Origin: a virus
Virus record (IMG/VR): IMGVR_UViG_3300032182_000642
Location: 1 to 22,933 of that record
Direction: 5' to 3' (one strand)
Length of the DNA: 22,933 nt
In this document: piece after piece, positions 1,620 to 22,933 of the stretch
Layout: each line of letters starts with the position of its first letter
Numbering within the stretch: the first letter of the stretch is position 1
The notes under the pieces: model-generated
Databases searched by the model: none
What the model saw: the letters and a program-made list of their open reading frames with translations, nothing else
What the model was told of the DNA's origin: nothing
Position numbers and translations under genes: made by a program

Positions 1620-3077
1620 GTGGTCTACAGCGCCAAGATCCCGCCAACCGGAGCTGTAGTCAGCGAATCCCCCTTCGTTCGCAGCCTCGATGTCATCGCA
1701 ATGATGACCGACTGGAGCGCAATGGCCGCCGTCACCAACGGCACCGAGTACCTGCGCGACCAAAGCGAGAAATACCTCCCCCAAGAGCCCCGCGAAGACG
1801 ACGACGCCTACCAAACCCGCGTCGATCGCAGCGTCCTCAGCCCCTACACCAGCCGCCTAATCGAGAGCGCCGCTGGCGCCATCCTGCGCAAGCCCATCCG
1901 CATCGACGGCGACCCCTACTGGCTGCAGCTAGCGGAAAATATCGACGGCATCGGCTCAAACATCAACGAGTACGCCCGCCGCGCCCTGGTTAGCAGCCTG
2001 ACCTACGGCCACAGCGCGATTTTGGTGGACTATCCCGCAGCAATGGGAGCGCGAAATCTTGCTGAGGAACGCGCCCAAGGCCGCCGCCCGTACTTCATCC
2101 ACATCGACGCCAACCAAATCTGGGGTTGGCGCCAAGCCAGCACCATGCCTGGCGCCCCACTCACCCAAGTCCGCATCCACGAGTACACAACCCGCCCCCT
2201 AAACGACTTCGGCGAGGAGCAAATCGAGCAAATGCGGGTGATCTACCCCGGCAAGTACGACCTCTACACGCTGGGCCAAGACGTAGTCGAGTTCAGCGAG
2301 TCCGGCGGCTACAGCCTCGACGAAATCCCACTGGTGCCGATCTACAGCAACCGCCGGGGCATGTTGCAGTCCCTGCCCCCGCTGCTGGACATCGCCAACC
2401 TGAATATCACCCACTACCAACGCCAAGCCGACCTCATCCACGCCCTCCACATCGCCGCCATGCCCACCCTCGTCCTAGAGGGCTGGGACGACACAACTGG
2501 CAGCGCAACTATGGGCGTCAACTACGCCATTGCCATGCAGCCCGGCAACAAGGCGTACTACGTCCAAGCCGACGCCACGAGCTTCAACGCTCAAATGGAA
2601 GAACTCCAATCGCTGGAGCAACAGATGTCCACTTTGGGCGTCACCAAACTTTTCGGTCAGAAATACGTTGCTGAATCCGCTGAAGCGAAGCGTATCGACC
2701 AAGCCCAAGGCAGCAGCGTCCTCTCAATCATCAGCCAAGAGCTGGAGAGCGCCCTCAACCAAGCCTTCGCCTTTGCCTCCCGCTACGTCGGCATCGAACC
2801 CCCCGAAATCTCCCTGGATCGAGACTTCGACTACTACCGCCTTATCGGTCAGGACGTTGCTGTTCTGACCCAACTGAACGAAGCGGGCAAGATCACGGAC
2901 GGACTGCTGCTCGACATCCTCCGTCGCGGCGAAATCCTGCCCGACACGGTGGACATCGAGACCGAACTCCAAGCCGCCGAGCAAATGCCGCAGGAGGAGG
3001 AAGTTGCACCTGAAGCCCCCAGCGAAGATTTAGGCCCCAACCAAGTCGATCGGCTGATTGATCTGCTGTCCCGCTGA
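1620..3077 (+). CDS. Portal protein (DUF4055-type)
   Basis: The product has 485 aa and starts at GTG 1620 after a TAGGAG ribosome binding site (1607-1612). The N-terminal third follows the pattern of DUF4055 phage portals: a TDWSAMAAVTNGTEYLRDQ segment, then KYLPQEP...DDAYQTRVDRSVLSPYTSRLIE, then GAILRKPIRI. A central beta-rich part and the LNITHYQRQADLIHALHIAA stretch match the helical core of portal proteins. The C-terminus is acidic and probably flexible (residues ~455-475). The protein would form the dodecameric ring at the capsid vertex through which DNA is packaged and to which the tail docks. The position after the terminase supports this. The TGA overlaps the next ATG (TGATG). Confidence 0.88.
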   Translation: MVYSAKIPPTGAVVSESPFVRSLDVIAMMTDWSAMAAVTNGTEYLRDQSEKYLPQEPREDDDAYQTRVDRSVLSPYTSRLIESAAGAILRKPIRIDGDPYWLQLAENIDGIGSNINEYARRALVSSLTYGHSAILVDYPAAMGARNLAEERAQGRRPYFIHIDANQIWGWRQASTMPGAPLTQVRIHEYTTRPLNDFGEEQIEQMRVIYPGKYDLYTLGQDVVEFSESGGYSLDEIPLVPIYSNRRGMLQSLPPLLDIANLNITHYQRQADLIHALHIAAMPTLVLEGWDDTTGSATMGVNYAIAMQPGNKAYYVQADATSFNAQMEELQSLEQQMSTLGVTKLFGQKYVAESAEAKRIDQAQGSSVLSIISQELESALNQAFAFASRYVGIEPPEISLDRDFDYYRLIGQDVAVLTQLNEAGKITDGLLLDILRRGEILPDTVDIETELQAAEQMPQEEEVAPEAPSEDLGPNQVDRLIDLLSR

Positions 3078-4078
3078 TGGCCACCAAAAAAGACACCCTC
3101 ACGCTCGCCCAAGTAGCCGCCATCAAGCGGCTGGAGCGCCGCCTTGAGACCCTCCCAAGTCCCGCCAAGGGCGACACCGGCCCAGCAGGCAAACCCGGCC
3201 CCCAAGGCGCTCCAGGCCCCCAAGGAAAGCCCGGTGAAAAGGGTCCTGAAGGTCCCAAGGGCTCAAAGGGTCCGCAGGGTCCTAAAGGCAACGAGGGCAA
3301 ACAAGGCCCCACAGGCAAAATCGGCCCCCGAGGCAGAACCGGCCCTGCTGGAGCCCAGGGTCCCGCCGGTGAGGACGGCAACACTATCTATTCAGGCACC
3401 AAACCCCCTACTGCCGACTTAGGCCGCGAAGGCGACTTCCACATCCGCACCGAACCACTGGAGCTATGCGGTCCCAAAACCCGCTCCGGTTGGCCTACAC
3501 CAATCCGCCTATCTGTCGAAGACGAAAAGAAATTAAGTGAGCTAACTGTTGGCGGAAGTTTACCCGGAAGCGGCGGAGGCGGAGGTTTTAACGGCGCCTT
3601 CAGCATCGGCACTGTTACTACAACAGCCCCCGGAAGTAACGCCACTGTTACAGACACAGGCACCAACGGCGATATAGTCCTCAACTTCGGCATTCCTCGC
3701 GGCGACACAGGTCTAGCTGGAACCGCCGCAACAATCACCATCGGCTCCGTCACCACCGGCGCCGCTGGAACCAACGCCGTCGTAACAAACAGCGGCACAT
3801 CTTCCGCCGCAATTCTCAATTTCACCATCCCTCAAGGTGAAGACGGCAACTTCACGATGGACGAGATCCTCGATGAAGTCCGCACCGACGCCGCAAACAC
3901 AACATTTACATATACAAATGGCCAACTCACCGGCAGCTCAAATACCGACGTAAGCAAAACATTTACATATAACCAAAACGGCACACTTGCTACCGTAACT
4001 ATAGTTACTACAGCCAAAACCATTACAAAGACGTTTAGCTACAATTCGAATGGACTGTCTTCCATAACGGTGACCTGA
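3077..4078 (+). CDS. Collagen-like virion protein (333 aa)
   Basis: The protein starts at ATG 3077, overlapping the portal stop. Order of parts: a short helical N-terminus (1-31); 24 uninterrupted Gly-X-Y triplets (32-103) that should form a collagen triple helix; a NTIYSGTKPPTADLGREGDF segment of the type that follows collagen stretches in phage fibres, with ELCGPKTRSGW after it; a glycine linker (GSGGGGG); two copies of a ~37-residue repeat (SIGTVTT...NFGIPRGDTG and TIGSVTT...NFTIPQGEDG); and a C-terminal part with three F-x-Y-x-x-x-G-x-L repeats. The likely role is a trimeric fibre or capsid/neck appendage. The place right after the portal, away from the tail fibre genes, suggests a head- or neck-attached fibre. 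That location is inference. Confidence 0.8.
   Translation: MATKKDTLTLAQVAAIKRLERRLETLPSPAKGDTGPAGKPGPQGAPGPQGKPGEKGPEGPKGSKGPQGPKGNEGKQGPTGKIGPRGRTGPAGAQGPAGEDGNTIYSGTKPPTADLGREGDFHIRTEPLELCGPKTRSGWPTPIRLSVEDEKKLSELTVGGSLPGSGGGGGFNGAFSIGTVTTTAPGSNATVTDTGTNGDIVLNFGIPRGDTGLAGTAATITIGSVTTGAAGTNAVVTNSGTSSAAILNFTIPQGEDGNFTMDEILDEVRTDAANTTFTYTNGQLTGSSNTDVSKTFTYNQNGTLATVTIVTTAKTITKTFSYNSNGLSSITVT
3170..3385 (+). repeat. Collagen Gly-X-Y repeat coding region (24 triplets)
   Basis: Codons run G-x-x without interruption for 24 triplets, beginning GDTGPAGKPGPQG. Pro and Lys are common at X and Y, as expected for a collagen-type triple helix. The DNA is a degenerate 9-base repeat. Confidence 0.9.
3602..3847 (+). 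repeat. Two copies of a ~37-residue virion-fibre repeat
   Basis: Copy 1 is coded at 3602-3712 and copy 2 at 3737-3847. They share I-G-[TS]-V-T-T, then A-x-G-[ST]-N-A, V-T-x-[TS]-G-T, then a hydrophobic LNF-x-IP and G-[DE]-x-G. Similar repeats are common near collagen stretches in phage fibres. Confidence 0.8.
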
Positions 4079-13518: not shown

Positions 13519-16500
13519 GTGGCTGACTACAACGCCAATATCAAGGTAAACGCCGACACCCGTGCAGCTGAGCAGGCTCTAAAACGTTTAACAACAGAGT
13601 TTGACAAACTTAAAGGTGTTAAAAACATCGGAGAGGCTTTTGTCCCTAAACAGGGACTAACACGCCTAGAAAAAGGTCTAAGTACAGTAGTTAATCGTGC
13701 AAACACGGTTGAAAAAGCGTTTGCAAGAGTAGTAGAAGGTGTAGGGACTTTAGGCGTTTCTGGGGCAGCTTTAGGCGGACTAAATGAAGCATTAAAAGGT
13801 GTTGCTACAGCGACAGGACAATCGGCTGCAAATTTCTCTGGAGCGGCTCGAAAAATAGATGAGTTTGCAGCTGCAGGGGATACACTAAAAACCACTCTGG
13901 CCCAAGTAAATAATTTACTCGTTGATGTAGGTCATGAGATTGCTAGAGGCATTGTACCTGGTTTCTCAGTTATGGATGACACTGCGCAGGCTACTGCGCA
14001 GACTGCAAACAAACTTCAGTATGCTTTCCAGCAATTTTTAGATTCATCAGAGGGTATTCGTACCTTTGTAAATAATATAGGAACGCTTGAAGGTACGTCT
14101 GGGGCAGCTGCAGTTGCCCTTACAGCACTTGCAGCTGTAGTTGAAGGTCAGTTATCCGAAGCACTGTACGACGTAGATACAAGTGCATCTACGGCGCTAC
14201 AAAATTTAGCCGCAGACGCATCCAGAGGTGCCAGCGAGCTGCAACGCCTTATCAGAGCTACTCAAGGCACTGTTGAACAGTACGAAGCACTTATTTCTAA
14301 AGGACAAGAACGCATAAGAACCGTCAATGCTGAATCCGACGAAGCCCGTCGAGCTGCAAACACAGTTACACAAGGGCAAAAATTACTCAATGCCGAGCTG
14401 GAGCGTCAGAACGATCTACTTAGAGAAGCTCGTGGATTACGTCCGGCATCGGTGGAAAAGCGTGCAACCGACAGGTACAATCTATTCCAACGCCGTAAAG
14501 AATACACCAAAACTGTTGCAGACGAATTTACAGCAGTAGATGAGTCTATAGCGCGAATTGCACAGCAGCCTACGGACTGGTCCCGTGCGCTTGGTATTGA
14601 TACTGCAGAAGAAAAGCTGCGCAGATTTAATAAAGAAATGGACGCACTCCACCAGGCTCTTGGTCAAATGGAGGGCAGGGCTGCTAATCCGTTCGGAATT
14701 ACAGCTAAACAGATTGAATTAGCTGAGCATAACGCTAAAGAGTTTAAGCAACAAATTCAACAAGTAAATTTACAGCTTGAGGATCTTACACAGTTACATA
14801 AAGCCCTAGGTCAAATGGAAAAAGGCGGCAGTGGTCCTTTCGGTATAGAGGAAGAGCAGATACAGGAGGCTTATGAATTTCGTTTCAAGGAAGAAAAAGC
14901 ATTTGAAGATTTACGCTTAGATACTATTAGACAAGCTATAAACGCCGAACTAGACGGTATTGATGAAGTTTACAAGGCTAGAACTCGAGCTAACAAAGCT
15001 GCCTTGGATGATTTTGATCGTCGCCTAGCAGGACGGGGAGAAGCGAAAAAGCGTCGGCGTCAAGTGGCTGAAAACGTTGCCATCGGCGGCGCGTTTCCGT
15101 TGCTGTTTGGCGGCGGCCCCGGCGCCGTTTTAGGTGGCGCAGCTGGTGGTTTTATTCCAGGTAGCCCCCTGCTGTCTGTGGCCACAAGTGCCTTGGGTAC
15201 TGTGATTGACCAGTACGTCCAAGGAGTTATGGATACGGGTAAAGCGTTACGCTACCCGATAGAGTCTTTCAAAGAGCTAGCAGAAAAAGGTTTACTCGCC
15301 AGTAAGAGCCAAGAAAAGTACATTGAAAAACTTATTGAAGCAGGGCGTGTCTACGAAGCTGCCGGAATTATTCAAGACGAGATTATTAAAAAGATCGGTG
15401 TTCAAGGAGTCAAAAATCTCCAAAACGCCGGGGCGGCAAGCGACAAACTCAACAAGGCTATGGCTGAGCTTGCTATTCAGACGCAAGCAGCTGTTGCCGG
15501 CCCACTCGCTGCCTTCCTTAGCTGGCTTGCCGAGGTTGTGGCAATAGGTAATAACGCTAGGCGAGCACAAGCAGCTGCAGCGGATCTAGTTCCGCAGGAT
15601 CCAGCCCAACGTAAAAAGTTTGAAAGTGCCCTTATTGCGGAATTTAATCGTGCTTACGGGGGTAGCTCCACAAAGCTAACCAGAGGTTCCATATCTGAGA
15701 CTCTTAAGTATATGTCTATGGATCAGCGGGGTAGAGCAGGTCTACAAAGGCTGCAGACGCAATTCCAGCCACAAACAGCTCCCGGTCTGAACGTAGATCC
15801 CACTGCCGCGCAACTTGCGGCTGCCCAAACACAAGAGCTACAAAAGCAAGTAGATCTTGCAGGCAAACAGCTATCTCTTGTCGGCCTAACTCTTGAAAAA
15901 GACGGGGCACGTTACATCGCAGCTGCAAAAGACGTTGCTCTACAGAAGTATAACAACAGACTGCTTGAAATTAAGAACAGCTTTATTGGAAAAATTGCCG
16001 ATAAAGAACGTGAAACCGCGATGAATAAAAAAGCGCAGCTAGAATATGATGCACAAATAAAACAAATAAACCTAGAAATTGCTCAAAACGCTGAAATGCG
16101 TGAAAAGGCTGCTTTGTCTGCCGAAGCAGCTTTGTACCAACAATCAGAACGTATATTGCTTTTCCAGATAGAAGCCGAGAAATTCCGCGCAGGCGAAAAA
16201 GCAGCTTTAACTGAGCAGCTAAACCTTCACCAGCTTATAGGCAACCAAAGGGAAGCAGCCCTGGAGGTCGAGCGCACCCTTGCACTGCAGGAAGCAAGTA
16301 AAAATGGAACAACACAACAGGTCATCCAGTTGTATGACCTCAAACTTGCGCTACTTCGGGATGAACTGGATCTAAACGAAGCCATAGTTAGAACTCAGCG
16401 CGACCAACTGGTACTGGATAAGTCTCTTGCCCAAGCCGACGCACTACGAGAAGCCGCCACACCGTTTACGGAGCTTCGGCGTAACCGTGAACTGGAACAG

Positions 16501-17388
16501 CAGTACGCCAAAACGTATCTACGGCTTGTTACTGAAGGGATACTTCCGGCAGAAGCCGAACGTATCGCTAACTTCGAGAAGTTAGTTGCTGAACAACTGG
16601 CATACACAGATCAGCAGATTAAAATTGTTGAGCAGCAAATACTTCTTACTGAAGCAACAATTACGGAAGCTGAGGCTCGTGGAGTTGCTGTAAACAAGCT
16701 CAAAGAACAATTAGATTTGCTTGAAAGACAGCGGGCGGTTATTAAGGGTGAAGCCGCTGAAGGCCCTGGGCAGGGACCAACAAACCGCGAACAACTCCAG
16801 ACAGCTATTGCCGGTGTAAAAGGTGAACTAAACGCACTAATTAATCCTGTAAATCAGATTGTTTCCGCAGCTGATGCTATCGGCATTGCCTTTGCCGATT
16901 CCTTCAAGGGCATCATTTCTGGAGCAATGACGGCTCAAGAAGCTCTTGCCAGCTTCTTCCAAAACTTAGCGGACTACTTCTTAGATATGGCAGCCCAAAT
17001 CATTGCCAAGTGGATTCAAATGACAATTCTAAATAGCGTGCTGCAGCTGTTCCCCGGGGGTGGCGGTGGCGGTGCTTCCGGTAATGCAGTTGCTCAGTTC
17101 AACGCTTCCGCTCTTCAATACAGAGCTAACGGAGGTCCCGTCTCTGCCGGATCTCCCTACGTGGTTGGCGAGCGCGGTCCCGAGCTATTTGTTCCAGGGC
17201 GCAGCGGCACGATTGTCCCCAACAACAAGATGGGCATGGGTGACGCCAACATCGTGGTGAACGTCGATGCCAGCGGCAGCAAAGCAGAAGGCGATTCTGG
17301 ACAAGCCAATAAACTTGGTGAAGCTATTGGCCTTGCGGTCAAGCAGGAACTGATCAAGCAGAAACGACCTGGAGGCTTGCTTGCCTGA
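13519..17388 (+). CDS. Tail tape measure protein (1289 aa)
   Basis: The start is GTG 13519, eight bases after TAGGAA. The N-terminus is helical with heptad character (ADTRAAEQALKRLTTEFDKL). Long charged coiled-coil stretches fill residues ~240-500 and ~770-1110. Residues ~519-565 are Gly-rich and hydrophobic (AIGGAFPLLFGGGPGAVLGG), a core I recall from cyanobacterial phage tape measures. A second hydrophobic stretch (~1144-1175) may insert into the host membrane. The end, GGPVSAGSPYVVGERGPELF, is a common tape-measure C-terminus. An internal duplication lies at residues 377-452. The protein sets tail length and is ejected at infection. Codons are clearly more A/T-ended than in the capsid, tube or portal genes, mainly in the first half. 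Confidence 0.93.
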   Translation: MADYNANIKVNADTRAAEQALKRLTTEFDKLKGVKNIGEAFVPKQGLTRLEKGLSTVVNRANTVEKAFARVVEGVGTLGVSGAALGGLNEALKGVATATGQSAANFSGAARKIDEFAAAGDTLKTTLAQVNNLLVDVGHEIARGIVPGFSVMDDTAQATAQTANKLQYAFQQFLDSSEGIRTFVNNIGTLEGTSGAAAVALTALAAVVEGQLSEALYDVDTSASTALQNLAADASRGASELQRLIRATQGTVEQYEALISKGQERIRTVNAESDEARRAANTVTQGQKLLNAELERQNDLLREARGLRPASVEKRATDRYNLFQRRKEYTKTVADEFTAVDESIARIAQQPTDWSRALGIDTAEEKLRRFNKEMDALHQALGQMEGRAANPFGITAKQIELAEHNAKEFKQQIQQVNLQLEDLTQLHKALGQMEKGGSGPFGIEEEQIQEAYEFRFKEEKAFEDLRLDTIRQAINAELDGIDEVYKARTRANKAALDDFDRRLAGRGEAKKRRRQVAENVAIGGAFPLLFGGGPGAVLGGAAGGFIPGSPLLSVATSALGTVIDQYVQGVMDTGKALRYPIESFKELAEKGLLASKSQEKYIEKLIEAGRVYEAAGIIQDEIIKKIGVQGVKNLQNAGAASDKLNKAMAELAIQTQAAVAGPLAAFLSWLAEVVAIGNNARRAQAAAADLVPQDPAQRKKFESALIAEFNRAYGGSSTKLTRGSISETLKYMSMDQRGRAGLQRLQTQFQPQTAPGLNVDPTAAQLAAAQTQELQKQVDLAGKQLSLVGLTLEKDGARYIAAAKDVALQKYNNRLLEIKNSFIGKIADKERETAMNKKAQLEYDAQIKQINLEIAQNAEMREKAALSAEAALYQQSERILLFQIEAEKFRAGEKAALTEQLNLHQLIGNQREAALEVERTLALQEASKNGTTQQVIQLYDLKLALLRDELDLNEAIVRTQRDQLVLDKSLAQADALREAATPFTELRRNRELEQQYAKTYLRLVTEGILPAEAERIANFEKLVAEQLAYTDQQIKIVEQQILLTEATITEAEARGVAVNKLKEQLDLLERQRAVIKGEAAEGPGQGPTNREQLQTAIAGVKGELNALINPVNQIVSAADAIGIAFADSFKGIISGAMTAQEALASFFQNLADYFLDMAAQIIAKWIQMTILNSVLQLFPGGGGGGASGNAVAQFNASALQYRANGGPVSAGSPYVVGERGPELFVPGRSGTIVPNNKMGMGDANIVVNVDASGSKAEGDSGQANKLGEAIGLAVKQELIKQKRPGGLLA
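14647..14874 (+). repeat. Internal duplication in the tape measure
   Basis: LHQALGQMEGRAANPFGI (from 14647, residue 377) and LHKALGQMEKGGSGPFGI (from 14794, residue 426) are two copies of a ~27-residue unit, 49 residues apart. The third bases differ, so the duplication is old or under protein-level selection. Confidence 0.85.
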
Positions 17389-17729
17389 TGGCTACCTTCC
17401 CCGACTACAAGCCGACCTACTCAGCCACCAAAAGATCTGAGCCTGCCATCCGCAACGTCAGATTTGGCGACGGCTACGAGCAGCGCCTCAGCTTCGGTCT
17501 CAACCAAAACCCTAAGCAGTGGGACCTGGAGTTCAACGTCGCTGACGACGACGCGGATGTCATCGAGGCTTTCTTGGATGCCCGCGCCCTCGACTCGGCT
17601 AGCTTTGACTGGACCCCGCCTGATACAGGCACTTCCTACAAGTGGGTGTGCTCCAGCTGGAGTCGTGAGATGTTTAGCCCTCTCCGCAGTCGAATTTCAA
17701 TGACTTTCCGGCAGGTCTTCGAGCCTTAA
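17388..17729 (+). CDS. Minor tail protein (lambda gpM-like, 113 aa)
   Basis: The ATG at 17388 overlaps the tape-measure TGA. The product follows the phage minor tail family (lambda gpM): FPDYKPTYSATKRSEPAIRN, VRFGDGYEQRLSFGLNQNPK, a W-x-L-E-F strand, IEAFLDARALDSASFDWTPP, and an R-I-S-M-T-F-R-Q-V-F-E strand at the end. The FGDGYEQR and FxWTPP signatures are clear. gpM-like proteins help attach the tip complex to the end of the tape measure. Length agrees with lambda gpM. Confidence 0.9.
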   Translation: MATFPDYKPTYSATKRSEPAIRNVRFGDGYEQRLSFGLNQNPKQWDLEFNVADDDADVIEAFLDARALDSASFDWTPPDTGTSYKWVCSSWSREMFSPLRSRISMTFRQVFEP

Positions 17730-17753
17730 ACTACCCACATAGGAGATTGACTC

Positions 17754-18791
17754 ATGGCCACCATTGTCACTCGTGCAGGTAAGGGCAGCGCCCTAACTCA
17801 CACGGAGATGGACGCCAACTTCACCAACTTGAACAACGACAAGTTGGAATCCGGCGCCGTCACCACGAGCGGCCTGACAATGGCGACCGCCAAGTTGCTG
17901 GGCAGGTCTACCGCTAGCACTGGTGCGGTTGAGGAGATCACTATCGGCAGCGGCTTAACGCTTTCCGCTGGAACGCTTACCGCATCTGGCGGCGGCGGGG
18001 GCACAGATCTTAGTTACACCGCAGCGACCCGACTACTCGAATCCAGCACTGGTACTGACGTAACTCTCCCGCTGTTTACTTCAACGGCGCCGGGTCTTGT
18101 CAATCTGTCTGGCGGCGGCACGACTAATTTCTTGCGTGCTGATGGTACATGGGCGGCGCCTGCCGGGGGCACGGGCACAGACCTGAGCTATACGGCATCT
18201 ACTCGTCTGCTTGCAAGCTCCACAGGTAATGACGTAACCCTCCCGCTTTTCTCTACAACCAGCTCTAACGCGGGCCTGGTTCCTGGTAACTCAAGTCTGG
18301 GTGCCACCTATTTTCTGACAGCCGCTGGAACTTGGGCAATTCCTGCAGGCGGTGGAACGGTCACCAGCGTTGCAGCTTCCAGCAGTGGCAGCATCACAAT
18401 CACTGGCAGCCCGATCACTTCAAGCGGCACCATCACCGTTGACCTGAACACAGCGAACGCCAACAGCTTCACCGGCGAGCAGACCTTCAAGGAAATCAAG
18501 GAGACTGTTTTTACCCTTGGTACGACAGGTTCAATCGCACTGGATCCGGCAAACGGTTCAATTCAAAGCAGCGTGCTGACAGGCAACCCTACGTTTACGG
18601 ATTCTTTGCAAGCCGGTCAAACGCTCGTCGTTCACATTGAGAATGGTTCGACTTATACCGTGACATTCCCAACGATGACCTGGGTCACATCTTCCGGCAA
18701 CAGCGCCCCAACGCTGACTGCAAAAGACACGGTTGTGTTTTGGAAAATCAGCACCACCTTGTACGGTGCTTATGTCGGGAGCTACGCCTAA
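17754..18791 (+). CDS. Tail fibre protein with tandem repeats (345 aa)
   Basis: The ATG at 17754 has AGGAG at 17741-17745. The N-terminus contains SALTHTEMDANFTNLNNDKL, a frequent start of phage fibre proteins, followed by an AKLLGRSTASTGAVEEITIG segment also common in fibres. Residues 83-200 hold two ~58-60-residue repeats (see repeat entry). A linker (GTVTSVAASSSGSITITGSP) leads to a beta-rich C-terminal domain (residues ~245-345, with TFTDSLQAGQTLVVHIENGS and VVFWKISTTLYGAYVGSYA). This C-terminal part may be the trimeric tip. It probably contacts the host surface. The product's stop overlaps the next ATG (TAATG). Confidence 0.83.
   Translation: MATIVTRAGKGSALTHTEMDANFTNLNNDKLESGAVTTSGLTMATAKLLGRSTASTGAVEEITIGSGLTLSAGTLTASGGGGGTDLSYTAATRLLESSTGTDVTLPLFTSTAPGLVNLSGGGTTNFLRADGTWAAPAGGTGTDLSYTASTRLLASSTGNDVTLPLFSTTSSNAGLVPGNSSLGATYFLTAAGTWAIPAGGGTVTSVAASSSGSITITGSPITSSGTITVDLNTANANSFTGEQTFKEIKETVFTLGTTGSIALDPANGSIQSSVLTGNPTFTDSLQAGQTLVVHIENGSTYTVTFPTMTWVTSSGNSAPTLTAKDTVVFWKISTTLYGAYVGSYA
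18000..18353 (+). repeat. Two tandem ~58-60-residue repeats in the tail fibre
   Basis: Copy 1 (18000-18173) starts GTDLSYTAATRLLESSTG and ends ADGTWAAPAGGT. Copy 2 (18174-18353) starts GTDLSYTASTRLLASSTG and ends AAGTWAIPAGG. Both contain DVTLPLF and a Gly-rich turn before TWA-x-PAGG. Confidence 0.88.
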
Positions 18792-19843
18792 TGCTTGGTA
18801 CAAAACTTATACAGGCATCTTCTGGAAATACAGGCGGTGGTGCTCCACCTGCAACTGAATACCTAGCCCTTGCAGATACCTCAATCCCGTTTGTGCATGT
18901 CTACCCTTGGTCAACTTCTGGCTTCGGAACAAAATACTCAAACCCTGCATCACAGCCAAGTAATAATGGTAAAAGTGTTGCTTTTTCGCCTTCTGTTAAT
19001 GACATTGCAGTATCAACCGCAAGCAGTCCTTATTGTGCCGCGTACCCATGGTCTTCATCTGGTTTCGGAACAAGATACAGTAACCCTTCAACAGCACTGC
19101 CAGGGACTTGCGAAGAGGTTGCATTCTCGCCATCAGGAAATGCTATTGCGTTTGCAACTAATAGTTCTCCCTATATACAAGCGTATGAGTGGTCGTCAGG
19201 ATTCGGGACAAAATACTCAAACCCGTCTACCTTACCGACATCCCAGATGTACGCAGTCAAGTTTACACCTAGCGGAAATGCCGTAATTACAGGAGGAGTT
19301 GGAGGGTCCTCCATGCACGCTTACGCATGGAGCGACGTAAGTGGATTTGGTACAAAATACTCAGATCCAGCAACGCAGCCTGCTACCACGACGATCGCTC
19401 TAGATATAAATGCCGCCGGCACTGCCATTTTAGGTGGAGTCTTTAATACCACTGCAAATGCCTGGAACTGGAGTGACGCAACTGGATTCGGTGCAAAATA
19501 CTCAAGTCCCGCCACAGGGCCATCGGGGAGAGTTAGATCTTGTGCCTTTGCTAAAGACGATTCTGCTGTCGCTATCGGGAGTGAAGGTTCGCCATATATA
19601 GACGCTTGGGCTTGGTCAAATAGCACTGGTTTTGGTTCAAAATACTCTAACCCGGCTACTGCACCCACAGGTCTTGTTTACGAAGCTGTTTTTTCAAAAA
19701 ATAGCGACGCTCTATGCTGCGCTCACTCCACAAGCCCTTTTGTTACTGTCTATGCTTGGTCGACTTCGGGTTTTGGAGCTAAATTTTCAAACCCTTCAAC
19801 TCTCCCAACTAACATCTGTAACGGAGCTGATTTTTCATCATGA
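18791..19843 (+). CDS. Seven-repeat beta-propeller-like putative receptor-binding protein (350 aa)
   Basis: I chose ATG 18791, which overlaps the fibre stop, over an in-frame ATG at 18740 inside the fibre gene. After a short Gly-rich N-terminus, GFG[TAS][KR][YF]S[NDS]P occurs seven times with a 46-48 residue period. Each copy is preceded by a [YW]-x-W segment and followed by a VAFSPSGNAIAFATNSS-like segment in six cases. The N-terminal EYLALADTSI resembles the missing seventh copy of that segment, as in circularly closed seven-bladed propellers. WD40-type or related propellers bind partners or sugars. Placed after the fibre gene, it may be the receptor-binding tip. Codons are more A/T-ended than in surrounding genes. 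The receptor is unknown. Confidence 0.8.
   Translation: MLGTKLIQASSGNTGGGAPPATEYLALADTSIPFVHVYPWSTSGFGTKYSNPASQPSNNGKSVAFSPSVNDIAVSTASSPYCAAYPWSSSGFGTRYSNPSTALPGTCEEVAFSPSGNAIAFATNSSPYIQAYEWSSGFGTKYSNPSTLPTSQMYAVKFTPSGNAVITGGVGGSSMHAYAWSDVSGFGTKYSDPATQPATTTIALDINAAGTAILGGVFNTTANAWNWSDATGFGAKYSSPATGPSGRVRSCAFAKDDSAVAIGSEGSPYIDAWAWSNSTGFGSKYSNPATAPTGLVYEAVFSKNSDALCCAHSTSPFVTVYAWSTSGFGAKFSNPSTLPTNICNGADFSS
18857..19840 (+). repeat. Seven ~141-base repeats encoding propeller blades
   Basis: The GFG codons of the seven copies begin at 18920, 19061, 19199, 19343, 19484, 19628 and 19769, giving spacings of 141, 138, 144, 141, 144 and 141 bases. The DNA copies have diverged (GGCTTCGGA, GGATTCGGG, GGTTTTGGT and others), so the repeat is maintained at protein level. 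Confidence 0.92.
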
Positions 19844-20097
19844 CGCAAACTAAGCATCAAATTCTTCAAAGCGCCCTTGATCAGCGCCAAGACGAGGTAC
19901 TTAACTATCAAATTAACATCGACAACTACACGCGAGCTATCGCAAAAATTGATGCTGAATACGCAGACAACCCTGCCATCGCTGAGTTCAAAGCCAGGCT
20001 GCAGGACTTGCTGGCATCTTCCGAGACCGAGCAACTCAAGGCAATTATCATTCGTGATGTGATTGCCGAGCAGATTGCCGAACTGGAGGCTTCCTGA
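19840..20097 (+). CDS. Small coiled-coil protein of the tail fibre module (85 aa)
   Basis: The ATG at 19840 overlaps the propeller TGA (ATGA). The product is almost wholly helical with heptad pattern (HQILQSALDQRQDEVLNYQI and LKAIIIRDVIAEQIAELEAS) and has no Cys or membrane segment. The family is not recognised. Position between the propeller and the fibre chaperone suggests a role in folding, trimerising or attaching the fibre. Its TGA overlaps the next ATG. A chance frame is unlikely, because both ends are precisely coupled. Confidence 0.72.
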   Translation: MTQTKHQILQSALDQRQDEVLNYQINIDNYTRAIAKIDAEYADNPAIAEFKARLQDLLASSETEQLKAIIIRDVIAEQIAELEAS

Positions 20098-20564
20098 TGT
20101 TTTACGTCAAGCTCAACGATGACGGCAGTGTTGACCGTTATCCGTACACGTTGACGGACTTACGACGATCCGTGTCGAACGTCAGCTTTCCGGCGGTTAT
20201 CACTGACGAGGTTGCTGCAGGCTTCGACGTTTACCCGGTCACCCCTACTGAGCAGCCCGCCCCAGATCACACCGTCAACTTCAGCCGCACTGCTGTGCTG
20301 CAAGACGGGTCATGGGTTGAAGAATGGAGCAGCACTCCGGCAACTGCAGAAGAGATTGCCCAGCGCACGGCATCACAATCTGAGGCCATCCGCTACCAAC
20401 GCAACGACCTGCTGGCTCAATCCGATTGGACGCAACTAGCTGACTCTCCGTTTGATGCTGACGGTAAAGCCGCTTGGGCGCTGTACCGCGAAACCTTGCG
20501 GATGGTGCCTGAACAGGCAGAGTTCCCCTGGAACGTTGATTGGCCGCCAACTCCCGGTAGCTAG
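20097..20564 (+). CDS. Tail fibre assembly chaperone-like protein (155 aa)
   Basis: The ATG at 20097 overlaps the preceding TGA. The N-terminal half begins MFYVKLNDDGSVDRYPYTLT and is a small beta domain. The C-terminal half, RYQRNDLLAQSDWTQLADSP, then AWALYRETLRMVPEQAEFPW and a WPPTPGS end, matches the phage tail assembly chaperone pattern R-x-x-R-[ND]-x-L-L-x-x-[ST]-D-W...AW-x-x-Y-R-x-x-L-R. In known phages these help fold or attach distal fibre proteins and often lie directly downstream of them, as here. Confidence 0.82.
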   Translation: MFYVKLNDDGSVDRYPYTLTDLRRSVSNVSFPAVITDEVAAGFDVYPVTPTEQPAPDHTVNFSRTAVLQDGSWVEEWSSTPATAEEIAQRTASQSEAIRYQRNDLLAQSDWTQLADSPFDADGKAAWALYRETLRMVPEQAEFPWNVDWPPTPGS

Positions 20565-20572
20565 GAGCCGCC

Positions 20573-22084
20573 ATGGCTGTCCCCGTATCTGAGCTTCAGA
20601 AGGTCAATCCAAGCGCGATCATCGAGCTGTTCGTGCTGGAACTGAATGTTGCTCAGCACGGGGTCAGCAGTATTTATCGCTTCCACGCAGGCGTCAACGC
20701 CTTCGACAACGGCGATGTCTACTGGAACGGGGACGCTTATACCCCGATGCCCATTGAGGCAGAGGGGTTTGAGTACACGGGCAAGGGTCAAATTCCCCGC
20801 CCAAAAATCCGTATCAGCAATCTGCTTGGCACGATCACCACGTTGCTACAGACCCTCGCTTATGGATTAGAGGGTGCCAAGGTCACGCGCATCAGAACGA
20901 TGGCGCGGTATCTGGACGATCTGAACTGGGGCGGTATTGATTATGTGGATCCGGATTACGTCGATCCTGGCTACATTGCCAGCGGTACTAACCCGTATGG
21001 CACACCCGACCCTACGGCTGAATTCCCTCAAGAGATTTATTACGTCGATCAAAAGACAGCAGAAAACCGCGACGTCATTGAGTACGAGTTAGCAGCAGCA
21101 TTTGACCTGCAGGGCACACGGGTTCCTAAGCGCCAGACAATTCAAAATGTCTGCCAGTGGAAATACCGCTCATACAACTCTTCTACTAGCTCGTTTGAGT
21201 ACACCCAAGTCGATTGCCCTTATACCGGCGACATCTACTACAAAACAGACGACAGCGTTACAACCGATCCATCCCTGGATCAATGCAGCAAGCGCCTAAG
21301 CAGCTGCCAGAAACGCTTTGGTTATGTCGAACTGACTGGCGACATCACAAACGGCAGCAACTTATTCAACGTTGATTCCGGCCAAGCCGACGAGCTGGCA
21401 CGAATTGACACTTCTGCAGGTTTGCTGTTTAAGGGTATCGGCATCCCCGACGGCACAACAATTACAGGCAAAAGTGCAACACAACTAACGCTTTCCGCTA
21501 ATGCCACTGCCAGCACTACGGTCAATCTGACAGGGACGATTGTTAAGTCCGGTTTGGCAATCAAAATGGTCAGCAACCCTGTCACCGCAGGGATTGTGCC
21601 CGGCATGTTGGTCACAGGCAGCATGGTGCCATCTGGCACGCGAGTCGAAAAAGTGAATGCAAGTTTACGGCTGGTCTACCTAACAATCGACGACAATCTT
21701 GAGGTTTGGACACTTGTCTACCCTAGCGCTTATGTGGATCCAGGTTATGTCGAAGCTGGTTATATAGGCGACGTAGACGAGGCGATTTACACAGAATCCA
21801 GCAAGCAACTAGATGTTTCTTATACAACAGGCATCGGACTGTATGATAGGGTTGTTGGCGACTTAATCTACGCAGATACCCGTGTAAAAGCCAAAGGAAC
21901 AGACTACATCCGATTGAACAAAGCTCAGGCGATCGCTGATGGCGAAATAGTTTCCTTTGGTGTCTATGAACGTGCTACCCGCAGCCCAGCAACTTACACC
22001 TTTGACGCACCAGAAACCTATATTGTTCAGCCCCAAGCAGGCTTGCCCTACGGTTCATTCCCCGGCGTCGGATTGTACCGATGA
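20573..22084 (+). CDS. Minor tail protein (lambda gpL-like) with a large insertion (503 aa)
   Basis: The ATG at 20573 has TAGGAG at 20562-20567, overlapping the previous stop. N-terminal IIELFVLEL, YRFHAGVNAF, YWNGDAYTPMPIEAEGFEYT and IPRPKIRISNLLG are typical of gpL. Four Cys (194, 215, 238, 245) fit the pattern of the iron-sulfur ligands of lambda gpL, including C-x6-C in QCSKRLSSCQKRFG. The usual PFG-x-FPG end occurs as PYGSFPGVGLYR. Between RFG and this end lie about 240 extra residues (251-490), so the protein is about twice the length of lambda gpL (232 aa). Three-fold Y-[VI]-x-x-x pentads occur at 124-138 and 387-400. gpL joins the tail tip beside the tape measure. Confidence 0.85.
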   Translation: MAVPVSELQKVNPSAIIELFVLELNVAQHGVSSIYRFHAGVNAFDNGDVYWNGDAYTPMPIEAEGFEYTGKGQIPRPKIRISNLLGTITTLLQTLAYGLEGAKVTRIRTMARYLDDLNWGGIDYVDPDYVDPGYIASGTNPYGTPDPTAEFPQEIYYVDQKTAENRDVIEYELAAAFDLQGTRVPKRQTIQNVCQWKYRSYNSSTSSFEYTQVDCPYTGDIYYKTDDSVTTDPSLDQCSKRLSSCQKRFGYVELTGDITNGSNLFNVDSGQADELARIDTSAGLLFKGIGIPDGTTITGKSATQLTLSANATASTTVNLTGTIVKSGLAIKMVSNPVTAGIVPGMLVTGSMVPSGTRVEKVNASLRLVYLTIDDNLEVWTLVYPSAYVDPGYVEAGYIGDVDEAIYTESSKQLDVSYTTGIGLYDRVVGDLIYADTRVKAKGTDYIRLNKAQAIADGEIVSFGVYERATRSPATYTFDAPETYIVQPQAGLPYGSFPGVGLYR

Positions 22085-22785
22085 GCTGGCGCGATGACGC
22101 TTTAGCCCACGCCGTAGAGGAAACGCCCAAAGAGAGTTGCGGGCTGCTGATTATTGAAAAGGGCTTGGAGCGTTATTGGCGTTGCCGCAACCTATCCCAG
22201 GATCCGCACGAGCTGTTCATTATTGATCCAGCTGACTGGGCAAAAGCAGAGGATGCTGGCGAGGTCATCGCCGTTGTTCACAGCCACCCAAATATACCGC
22301 CAAGCCCAAGCCAAGCTGACCTGACTGCCTGCGAGGCAAGCGGTTTGCGTTGGGAAATCGTGAACCCGCAGCTTGAAACCTGGGGCAGTTGTGAGCCAAG
22401 CGGTTATAAATCCCCGTTGATTGGCCGCCCTTGGATTTGGAACGTCACTGACTGCTGGACATTAGTTCGGGACTGGTACGGCACACAGGGAATCGACCTA
22501 CCTGATTGGAAAAGACCGGCAACACCAGAAGAGTTTGACGAGTCTCCGATGTTTGACGAGTTGTGGGCTGAGGCAGGCTTCCGCGAGCTAGCTGAGGATG
22601 AACCGCTTGAAGTCGGCGATGCGTTGCTGTTTGATTTCAAGGGCAAACTCAACCACGTCGGTGTGCTGGTGGAGCCCCAAATGGTGCTGCATCATGTACG
22701 CGGAAGGCTTAGCAGCCGTGACCTGTACGGGCAGCTGCTACTAAAATCAACGGGTAGGAGGTTGCGCCATGCTTCGCAGGATTAA
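22081..22785 (+). CDS. Tail tip peptidoglycan hydrolase (lambda gpK-like, JAMM + NlpC/P60, 234 aa)
   Basis: The ATG at 22081 overlaps the gpL TGA. The N-terminal JAMM/MPN domain shows Glu18 in PKESCGLL, H67-S-H69 and S77-x-x-D80 (HSHPNIPPSPSQAD), the zinc-binding set. The C-terminal NlpC/P60 domain has the nucleophile Cys125 in NVTDCWTLVRDWYG, His192 in LNHVGVLVE and a further polar His at 204/205. Both sets of catalytic residues look intact. In lambda-like phages gpK acts in tail-tip assembly and may cut the cell wall during DNA entry. Length agrees with the family. The gene overlaps the next by 17 bases. Confidence 0.92.
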   Translation: MSWRDDALAHAVEETPKESCGLLIIEKGLERYWRCRNLSQDPHELFIIDPADWAKAEDAGEVIAVVHSHPNIPPSPSQADLTACEASGLRWEIVNPQLETWGSCEPSGYKSPLIGRPWIWNVTDCWTLVRDWYGTQGIDLPDWKRPATPEEFDESPMFDELWAEAGFRELAEDEPLEVGDALLFDFKGKLNHVGVLVEPQMVLHHVRGRLSSRDLYGQLLLKSTGRRLRHASQD

Positions 22786-22933
22786 GCTCTACGGCAGCCT
22801 GGCGAAGTTCATCGGCAAGCGGGTGCTCTACGCCGATGTGGCTAGTGCGGCTGAAACTGTGCGGTTTTTAGTCGCCAACTGGCCAGAGTTACGGCAACAC
22901 ATGGGTGACAAGCATTACAAGGTACTTGTAGGC
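22769..22933 (+). CDS. Tail assembly protein (lambda gpI-like), 3' truncated by window edge
   Basis: The ATG at 22769 has a strong TAGGAGG (22755-22761) at 7-base spacing, inside the end of the gpK gene. The 55 visible codons begin MLRRIKLYGSLAKFIGKRVL and include VASAAETVRFLVANWPELRQ, matching the start of lambda gpI-type proteins (LYG-x-L...FG, then an A-[EV]-x-x-R-x-L helix). The frame is open at the window edge. gpI is needed for tail-tip assembly, and the central tip protein gpJ would be expected downstream. Confidence 0.85.
   Translation, partial: MLRRIKLYGSLAKFIGKRVLYADVASAAETVRFLVANWPELRQHMGDKHYKVLVG

Follow-up and report, generated by a model that had tools for sequence, protein, structure and literature searches.

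In the virus record IMGVR_UViG_3300032182_000642 (IMG/VR; positions 1 to 22,933, the whole 22,933-nucleotide stretch analyzed here and called the window), the gene directly behind a tail fibre gene encodes a repetitive protein, P0001, which we read, with a probability of about three in four, as a tail-fibre tip adhesin: a seven-bladed propeller head whose top face would contact a host ligand, and whose short N-terminal peptide (the plug) would dock on a conserved C-terminal domain of the fibre (the socket). The head is modelled very confidently as a closed WD40/YVTN-like ring of seven blades, formed by a single chain with a 3+1 velcro closure. A wider proposal, to which we give even odds, is that environmental tailed phages share a plug-and-socket slot, where at least two fibre-tip types accept any head with a matching plug of ~10-15 residues, and unrelated heads (WD40-like, RCC1, SBBP and other propellers, DUF7483, glycine-rich) are exchanged, possibly driven by interposed endonuclease-like genes. 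Coordinates are collected in Table 1.

Matching of fibre-tip sockets and proposed adhesin plugs

When viral contigs were searched with the socket domain alone, with at most 80 matches taken per search, the gene after the socket was usually not a WD40-like propeller. The heads found in this place were WD40-like, RCC1 and SBBP-type or SGL-like propellers, DUF7483 and a glycine-rich domain. Behind S1 sockets (ending in YGARVGDA or YGAYVGSYA) the next genes begin with ML[GS]KxLxxAAAGNAG (P1), and behind S2 sockets (ending in GQNYTV or GQNYL) they begin with MFSSNTSQVS (P2); the fibre upstream of P0001 ends in an S1 socket, and the P0001 plug is MLGTKLIQASSGNTGGG. Heads of one kind were met with different plugs: DUF7483 heads carry MLGKQLTQAAAGSAAG in locus L228 and MFSSNTSTATA in L302, and glycine-rich heads an S1-type plug in L238 and an S2 plug in L311. 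The socket lies at the very tip of the fibre chain, its profile matches stopping 2-6 residues before the C-terminus in 138 of 194 domain matches, and a socket-bearing fibre is found directly upstream in 44 of the 61 loci with a stand-alone propeller.

Across 199 unique cassettes, S1 sockets were followed by 67 P1 plugs and no P2, and S2 sockets by 76 P2 plugs and one P1, the latter belonging to a GIY-YIG endonuclease-like gene and to no adhesin. The strict P1 pattern was present in 44/71 S1 cassettes, 0/85 S2 cassettes and 5/1769 background N-termini, and P2 in 76/85 S2 cassettes, no S1 cassette and four of the 1769 background N-termini. Plug similarity follows the socket and not the head: in a comparison free of any pattern, plug identity was 0.472 when the heads differed and the socket was shared vs. 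0.229 when the head was shared and the sockets differed, a difference that none of 200 permutations within head class reached.

Several points weigh against this matching. Plug and socket classes were defined after inspection of the data; the loose form of the P1 pattern also fits 300/1769 background N-termini, specificity being confined to the strict form, and 27 of the 71 S1 cassettes fail that strict form. Socket and plug are moreover adjacent in the genome, and shared inheritance could partly explain their match. Finally, the plug is without structure in the monomer model, which contains the propeller chain alone: residues 1-17 are disordered, with a predicted local distance difference test (pLDDT) score mostly below 50.

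The plug could also owe its conservation to something other than docking: it might be an arm for DNA recombination, a context for translation start or, less easily dismissed, a chaperone tag. It sits at the extreme start of the gene, overlapping or adjoining the fibre stop (in P0001 the start ATG at 18791 shares bases with that stop, TAATG, and relatives have the same start site), and recombination upstream of the heads would leave it with its socket. However, the conserved plug residues are encoded by many synonymous codons, including serine switches between TCN and AGY, which argues that selection acts on the peptide. An adhesin behind an inserted endonuclease-like gene still starts with the matching plug, independently of adjacency, and fused propellers gave no match to the socket profile and begin from a different linker. 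We consider a non-docking plug unlikely, though it deserves serious weight beside the docking peptide that we prefer.

The slot with exchangeable heads goes beyond what the first-pass annotation of this DNA had described. In eight loci (L335, L353, L355, L363, L365, L374, L377, and L283) the fibre stop is followed at once by an extra gene, placed precisely between the socket and the adhesin; it is a GIY-YIG gene with NUMOD3 in L353, carries NUMOD3 in L377, and is HNH-like by eye only in the others, and the gene with the socket-matching plug comes next in 7/8. Inserted genes of this endonuclease-like kind could drive head exchange.

Variable face and proposed adhesin role

In a sample of 20 pairs of related equal-length proteins (positions numbered from the G of GFG in the repeat motif), nonsynonymous change per blade was highest at −14 (57%), +15 (56%), and +17 (53%), with synonymous change of 2-8% at these positions; the close pairs share members and are not independent, so that the percentages are descriptive and count for less in favor of a binding face. 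Loop entropy averaged over whole loops did not clearly separate the two faces, whereas the count by position did. By the a-b-c-d meander the three peaks fall in the b-c and d-a loops, on one face, and, since strand b is the first of the chain and strand a the last, both termini would meet on the other, bottom face; attachment side and variable surface are predicted to lie opposite each other. The variable loops, on the top face around the pore mouth, most likely touch a host surface ligand, plausibly a glycan, and the flexible plug most likely docks on the socket of the fibre whose gene immediately precedes that of P0001; the chaperone encoded downstream probably assists assembly of fibre or adhesin. 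Sockets and plugs would come in matched types, the heads being swapped behind the plug.

In several phages the propeller is fused to N-terminal parts matching tail-fibre PHROGs, the Mtd N-terminal domain (Mtd_N) or fn3, the relative L067 carrying an Mtd_N N-terminus. By gene order and gene fusion, the propeller most likely sits distally, at the end of the tail fibre; together with the location of the variable positions, these findings support a receptor-binding role. The first-pass annotation had noted that the gene follows the tail fibre, as the TAATG overlap confirms, and had proposed a candidate receptor-binding head; the proposal gains support from these three lines, which are not biochemical. 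It counts against the adhesin reading that virion location, receptor binding and docking are all deduced from sequence and model.

P0001 could instead be a general tail component, a scaffold or decoration, with the host recognized by another part of the tail. Propellers are common as scaffolds, and minor tail proteins are also encoded nearby. Yet related phages fill the fibre-chaperone slot with heads of other kinds, for the most part lectin-like or propellers, and in each blade change gathers at three positions of the top face. An adhesin should show both features and a scaffold neither, and we regard this alternative as quite improbable.

The residues conserved in the head bear on a further alternative, in which P0001 is an enzyme of the virion, akin to a lactonase or depolymerase, with host surface polymers as its substrate, and not purely a binding head. 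Its appeal lies in the 6-phosphogluconolactonases among the best structural matches (Z 34.8) and in the CGphi29 protein, a distant relative that matches Pfam Lactonase, a match that P0001 lacks. The 33-sequence alignment (A2), however, has Asp, Glu, His, Arg, and Cys conserved at no position and lacks any conserved polar residue particular to one blade; among charged residues, only the lysine of GFG-x-K is near-invariant, and it is so in all seven blades (P0001 residues 48, 95, 141, 189, 236, 284, and 331, with arginine in blade 2 of P0001). This lysine may serve in blade packing or form a ring of charge. Blade identity was 0.67 within a protein vs. 0.534 between proteins, the latter value being the same with matching or differing blade index. 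Blades more alike within than between proteins favor repeated blade amplification and disfavor an enzyme site, and the lack of positional orthology is ill suited to an asymmetric active site. An enzyme is very unlikely on these grounds, and the tip adhesin remains our reading.

Predicted ring and repeat number

The P0001 frame is open and starts with ATG. It contains seven GFG-[AST]-[KR]-[YF] motifs (GFG-x-[KR]-[YF]-S) at spacings of 47, 46, 48, 47, 48, and 47 residues, and its units score on average 88.8 against one another with BLOSUM62, vs. −12.5 in shuffled units (shuffled maximum −4.4). TRF found no DNA tandem array in the region, and the repeats exist at the protein level only. The last repeat ends after strand a (NICNGADFSS), and the N-terminal EYLALADTSIPFVHVYPW corresponds to strands b-c of the blade thus left unfinished.

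AlphaFold2, run on P0001 with alignment A2, returned a model with pLDDT 91.9 and a predicted template modelling score of 0.89. Its strand order, read from DSSP and structural matches, resolves into seven a-b-c-d blades, with N-terminal strands b (23-29) and c (35-41) joining C-terminal strand a (343-348) in one blade. The best solved match was the seven-bladed WRAP design 7bid (Z 38.4, root mean square deviation 1.9 Å over 285 residues), then came the YVTN S-layer propeller 1l0q (Z 35.3) and next the 6-phosphogluconolactonases (Z 34.8); in BFVD, the top match was a 694-residue protein annotated as WD40/YVTN from an uncultured Caudovirales phage, 40% identical. The earlier description of seven GFG-x-KYSNP repeats of 46-48 residues, the last lacking one strand that the N-terminus resembles, is thus borne out by the spacings, the unit scores and the two chain ends, and the velcro-closed ring of seven that it had foreseen is what the monomer prediction gave. 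Of the folds it had named for a structure search, WD40-type propellers matched best, along with those of YVTN type; the matches listed for the model included no tachylectin or sialidase propeller, which does not disprove a likeness to these.

At the level of sequence families P0001 received no named family in PHROG or NCBIfam. It reaches 11.3 bits against canonical WD40 (PF00400), under the Pfam cut-off of 27, and its blades contain YPW and no WD; it is WD40-like by fold only. No Pfam match to Lactonase, 7-bladed (PF10282) was obtained for it, a family that P0004, a distant relative, does pass.

Relatives were gathered from IMG/VR with three queries, and from genomes. At least 587 IMG/VR contigs encode propeller relatives. 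In bacterial genomes, a protein-pattern scan matched nothing when P0001 was the only query and nine contigs when the alignment was used. The closest named relative is the "wD40 repeat protein" UOF80687 of phage MW202701 (46.5% identity), and some phage records already label such relatives WD40 proteins. The propeller itself adds one member to a large phage group that already carries annotation, and the idea that its kind is rarely described in siphoviruses does not hold, given these contigs and the propeller receptor-binding proteins known or suspected in phi11, PRD1, and phiKZ. Positions 13791-22933 of the window belong to the same virus as IMG/VR 3300032181_000059 and 3300032194_000117 (L001 and L002), being 99.99% identical over the 9,143 bases compared.

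Counted in complete open reading frames (ORFs) with a single-hairpin profile, the repeat number was 7 in 36, 14 in 38 and 21 in 4 of 87 non-redundant ORFs, i.e., a multiple of seven in 78/87; the other nine, six of them off by one blade, speak against a strict rule. Two of the IMG/VR queries favor 7- and 14-blade lengths, and a 50-residue single-blade query served as control against this bias; in its set, 40 of 45 non-redundant proteins were multiples of seven. In 14-blade proteins the spacing of 47 mostly widens to 50-54 from blade 7 to blade 8, where the sequence begins again at strand b (e.g., PEFLAVAH), and one of them, L088, is predicted as two seven-blade sets (pLDDT 86.8). Repeat quantization, the regular break at the junction and the two-set prediction are strong evidence that the family forms closed rings of seven. 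Repetitive beta structure is common in phage fibre proteins, but a beta-helix, solenoid or trimeric fibre is hardly credible for P0001 against the confident closed-ring model, the strong matches of solved propellers and counts fixed at multiples of seven, a limit that a solenoid would not impose.

Proteins with 6, 12, or 13 repeats were seen in L133 (6037-7881), L164, L135, L142, L169, L204, and L210. In L133 the chaperone lies 947 bp downstream of the propeller, which suggests a frameshift or assembly break instead of a genuine 12-blade protein.

Gene neighborhood

The window carries lambda-type minor tail genes (PF05939, PF05100, JAB/NlpC) and a 1289-residue ORF at the tape-measure position, and is consistent with a siphovirus on that account. 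The fibre itself (17754-18791) had no Pfam match above cut-off and no PHROG match; its C-terminal domain is also homologous to gp42 of Roseobacter phage CRP-1, a cultured marine phage of like arrangement, with gp42 as the socket-bearing fibre and gp41 as the putative head. Among the 59 non-redundant loci whose sequence extends far enough, 51 have a chaperone behind the propeller, mostly at a distance of ~250 bp. As for a diversity-generating retroelement, no RVT_1 match was found in 31 records including the window, many of them partial.

Table 1. Features of the propeller locus in the window
Feature	Position	Strand	Basis
Tail fibre gene, 345 residues, directly upstream of P0001	17754..18791	+	ORF list; stop overlaps propeller start (TAATG)
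Socket, conserved fibre C-terminal domain of ~100 residues, type S1 (ends in LYGAYVGSYA)	18474..18788	+	Profile matches; 448 relatives in viral contigs
Propeller, putative adhesin P0001, seven-bladed	18791..19843	+	ORF of 350 residues; repeats, AlphaFold2 model, structural matches
Putative plug MLGTKLIQASSGNTGGG, N-terminal peptide of ~15 residues	18791..18841	+	Similar plugs on unrelated heads behind same socket type
N-terminal strands b-c-d completing last blade, residues 23-44	18857..18922	+	AlphaFold2 secondary structure; 14-blade relatives in same phase
Six full blades, flanked by the two halves of the velcro blade	18923..19816	+	Repeat spacing, model
C-terminal strand a closing the ring, residues 343-348	19817..19834	+	AlphaFold2 secondary structure
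Small ORF, 85 residues	19840..20097	+	ATGA overlap with propeller stop; homologues between propeller and chaperone in 53/68 loci
Tail-fibre / tail assembly chaperone, 155 residues	20097..20564	+	PF16778, Pfam E = 2.9e-19; PHROG tail fiber assembly

A second, unrelated-looking genomic context was met in L155, L157, L159, and L162 (Dojkabacteria, Tepidiforma, Nitrosotalea, and Fimbriimonadales contigs), where a different conserved ORF of ~110 residues (YKALTQEEMDDIVVEFL.AQERD.F.H.LN..RF) precedes the propellers and no chaperone was found downstream of them. Some upstream fibres (L120, 4513-5613; L185, 7677-9572) seem to contain a second, internal propeller-like repeat (YIRSDGLRLFMV / FFSPDGLKMYVAG), and appear as if propellers were stacked along the fibre. 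Elsewhere in the window, a 333-residue ORF between portal and head genes (3077-4078) has a long collagen-like G-x-y stretch (GPAGKPGPQGAPGPQGKPG..).

Comparison with known systems

As a fold, P0001 resembles the WRAP designs and highly repetitive WD40-like propellers (PDB 2ymu, 7bid), which share its seven similar blades from blade amplification and of which none is a phage adhesin. The blade numbers of highly repetitive propellers form a continuum (PMC9218822), in contrast to the P0001 family, locked to 7, 14, and 21; such counts offer a natural experiment on whole-ring propeller duplication. UOF80687 has the same neighbors as P0001, a small ORF and then a tail assembly chaperone, and differs in its 14 repeats, two seven-blade sets in tandem.

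Siphoviruses do use propellers to recognize their hosts, as seen in the receptor-binding protein of the Staphylococcus phage phi11, which has a beta-propeller with N- and C-terminal strands in one blade (PMC4901313). It is, unlike P0001, five-bladed, lies within a trimeric multidomain protein with stem and tower, and has no separate plug. According to the same paper, propeller receptor-binding proteins are known or suspected in phi11, PRD1, and phiKZ, and gp131C of phiKZ (PDB 4GBF) is a seven-bladed propeller at the baseplate periphery and a suspected receptor binder (PMC4901313). The latter comes from a myophage and is part of a larger protein, in which it differs from P0001, and it was not among the structural matches listed for the P0001 model.

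The closest parallel to the slot is the gp37-gp38 pair of T2, PP01, and S16, with a separate tip adhesin whose N-terminus is matched to the fibre tip. In T2-type phages the N-terminus of gp38 interacts with gp37 and must match it, and PP01 gp38 failed to complement a deletion of T2 gp38, a failure ascribed to incompatibility with gp37, until its N-terminal 113 residues were exchanged (PMC12892980). P0001 is likewise encoded by a separate gene directly after the fibre gene, and its N-terminal element appears, by statistical match, to be paired with the fibre tip, from which we infer docking. Its likeness to gp38 of T2 and S16 is functional at most, the head being a propeller, and is drawn from gene layout and not from a comparison of sequences. 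Glycine-rich heads also occur in the slot; unlike gp38, however, the plug has ~15 residues vs. ~110, the heads include WD40-like, RCC1, and SBBP propellers and DUF7483, and an assembly chaperone gene is next.

An exchangeable slot with matched short plugs was described nowhere in the open-access literature covered by a limited search, nor did a literature search return a paper on DUF7483 or the repeat motif string, and the slot appears to be a new variation on the gp37-gp38 principle. If true, the plug-socket rule would locate the receptor-binding protein in uncultured phages, as the gene after the socket-bearing fibre, and would tell which heads go with which fibres, and the gp37-gp38 principle, known from T-even phages, would also apply to environmental phages that are abundant and have many head folds.
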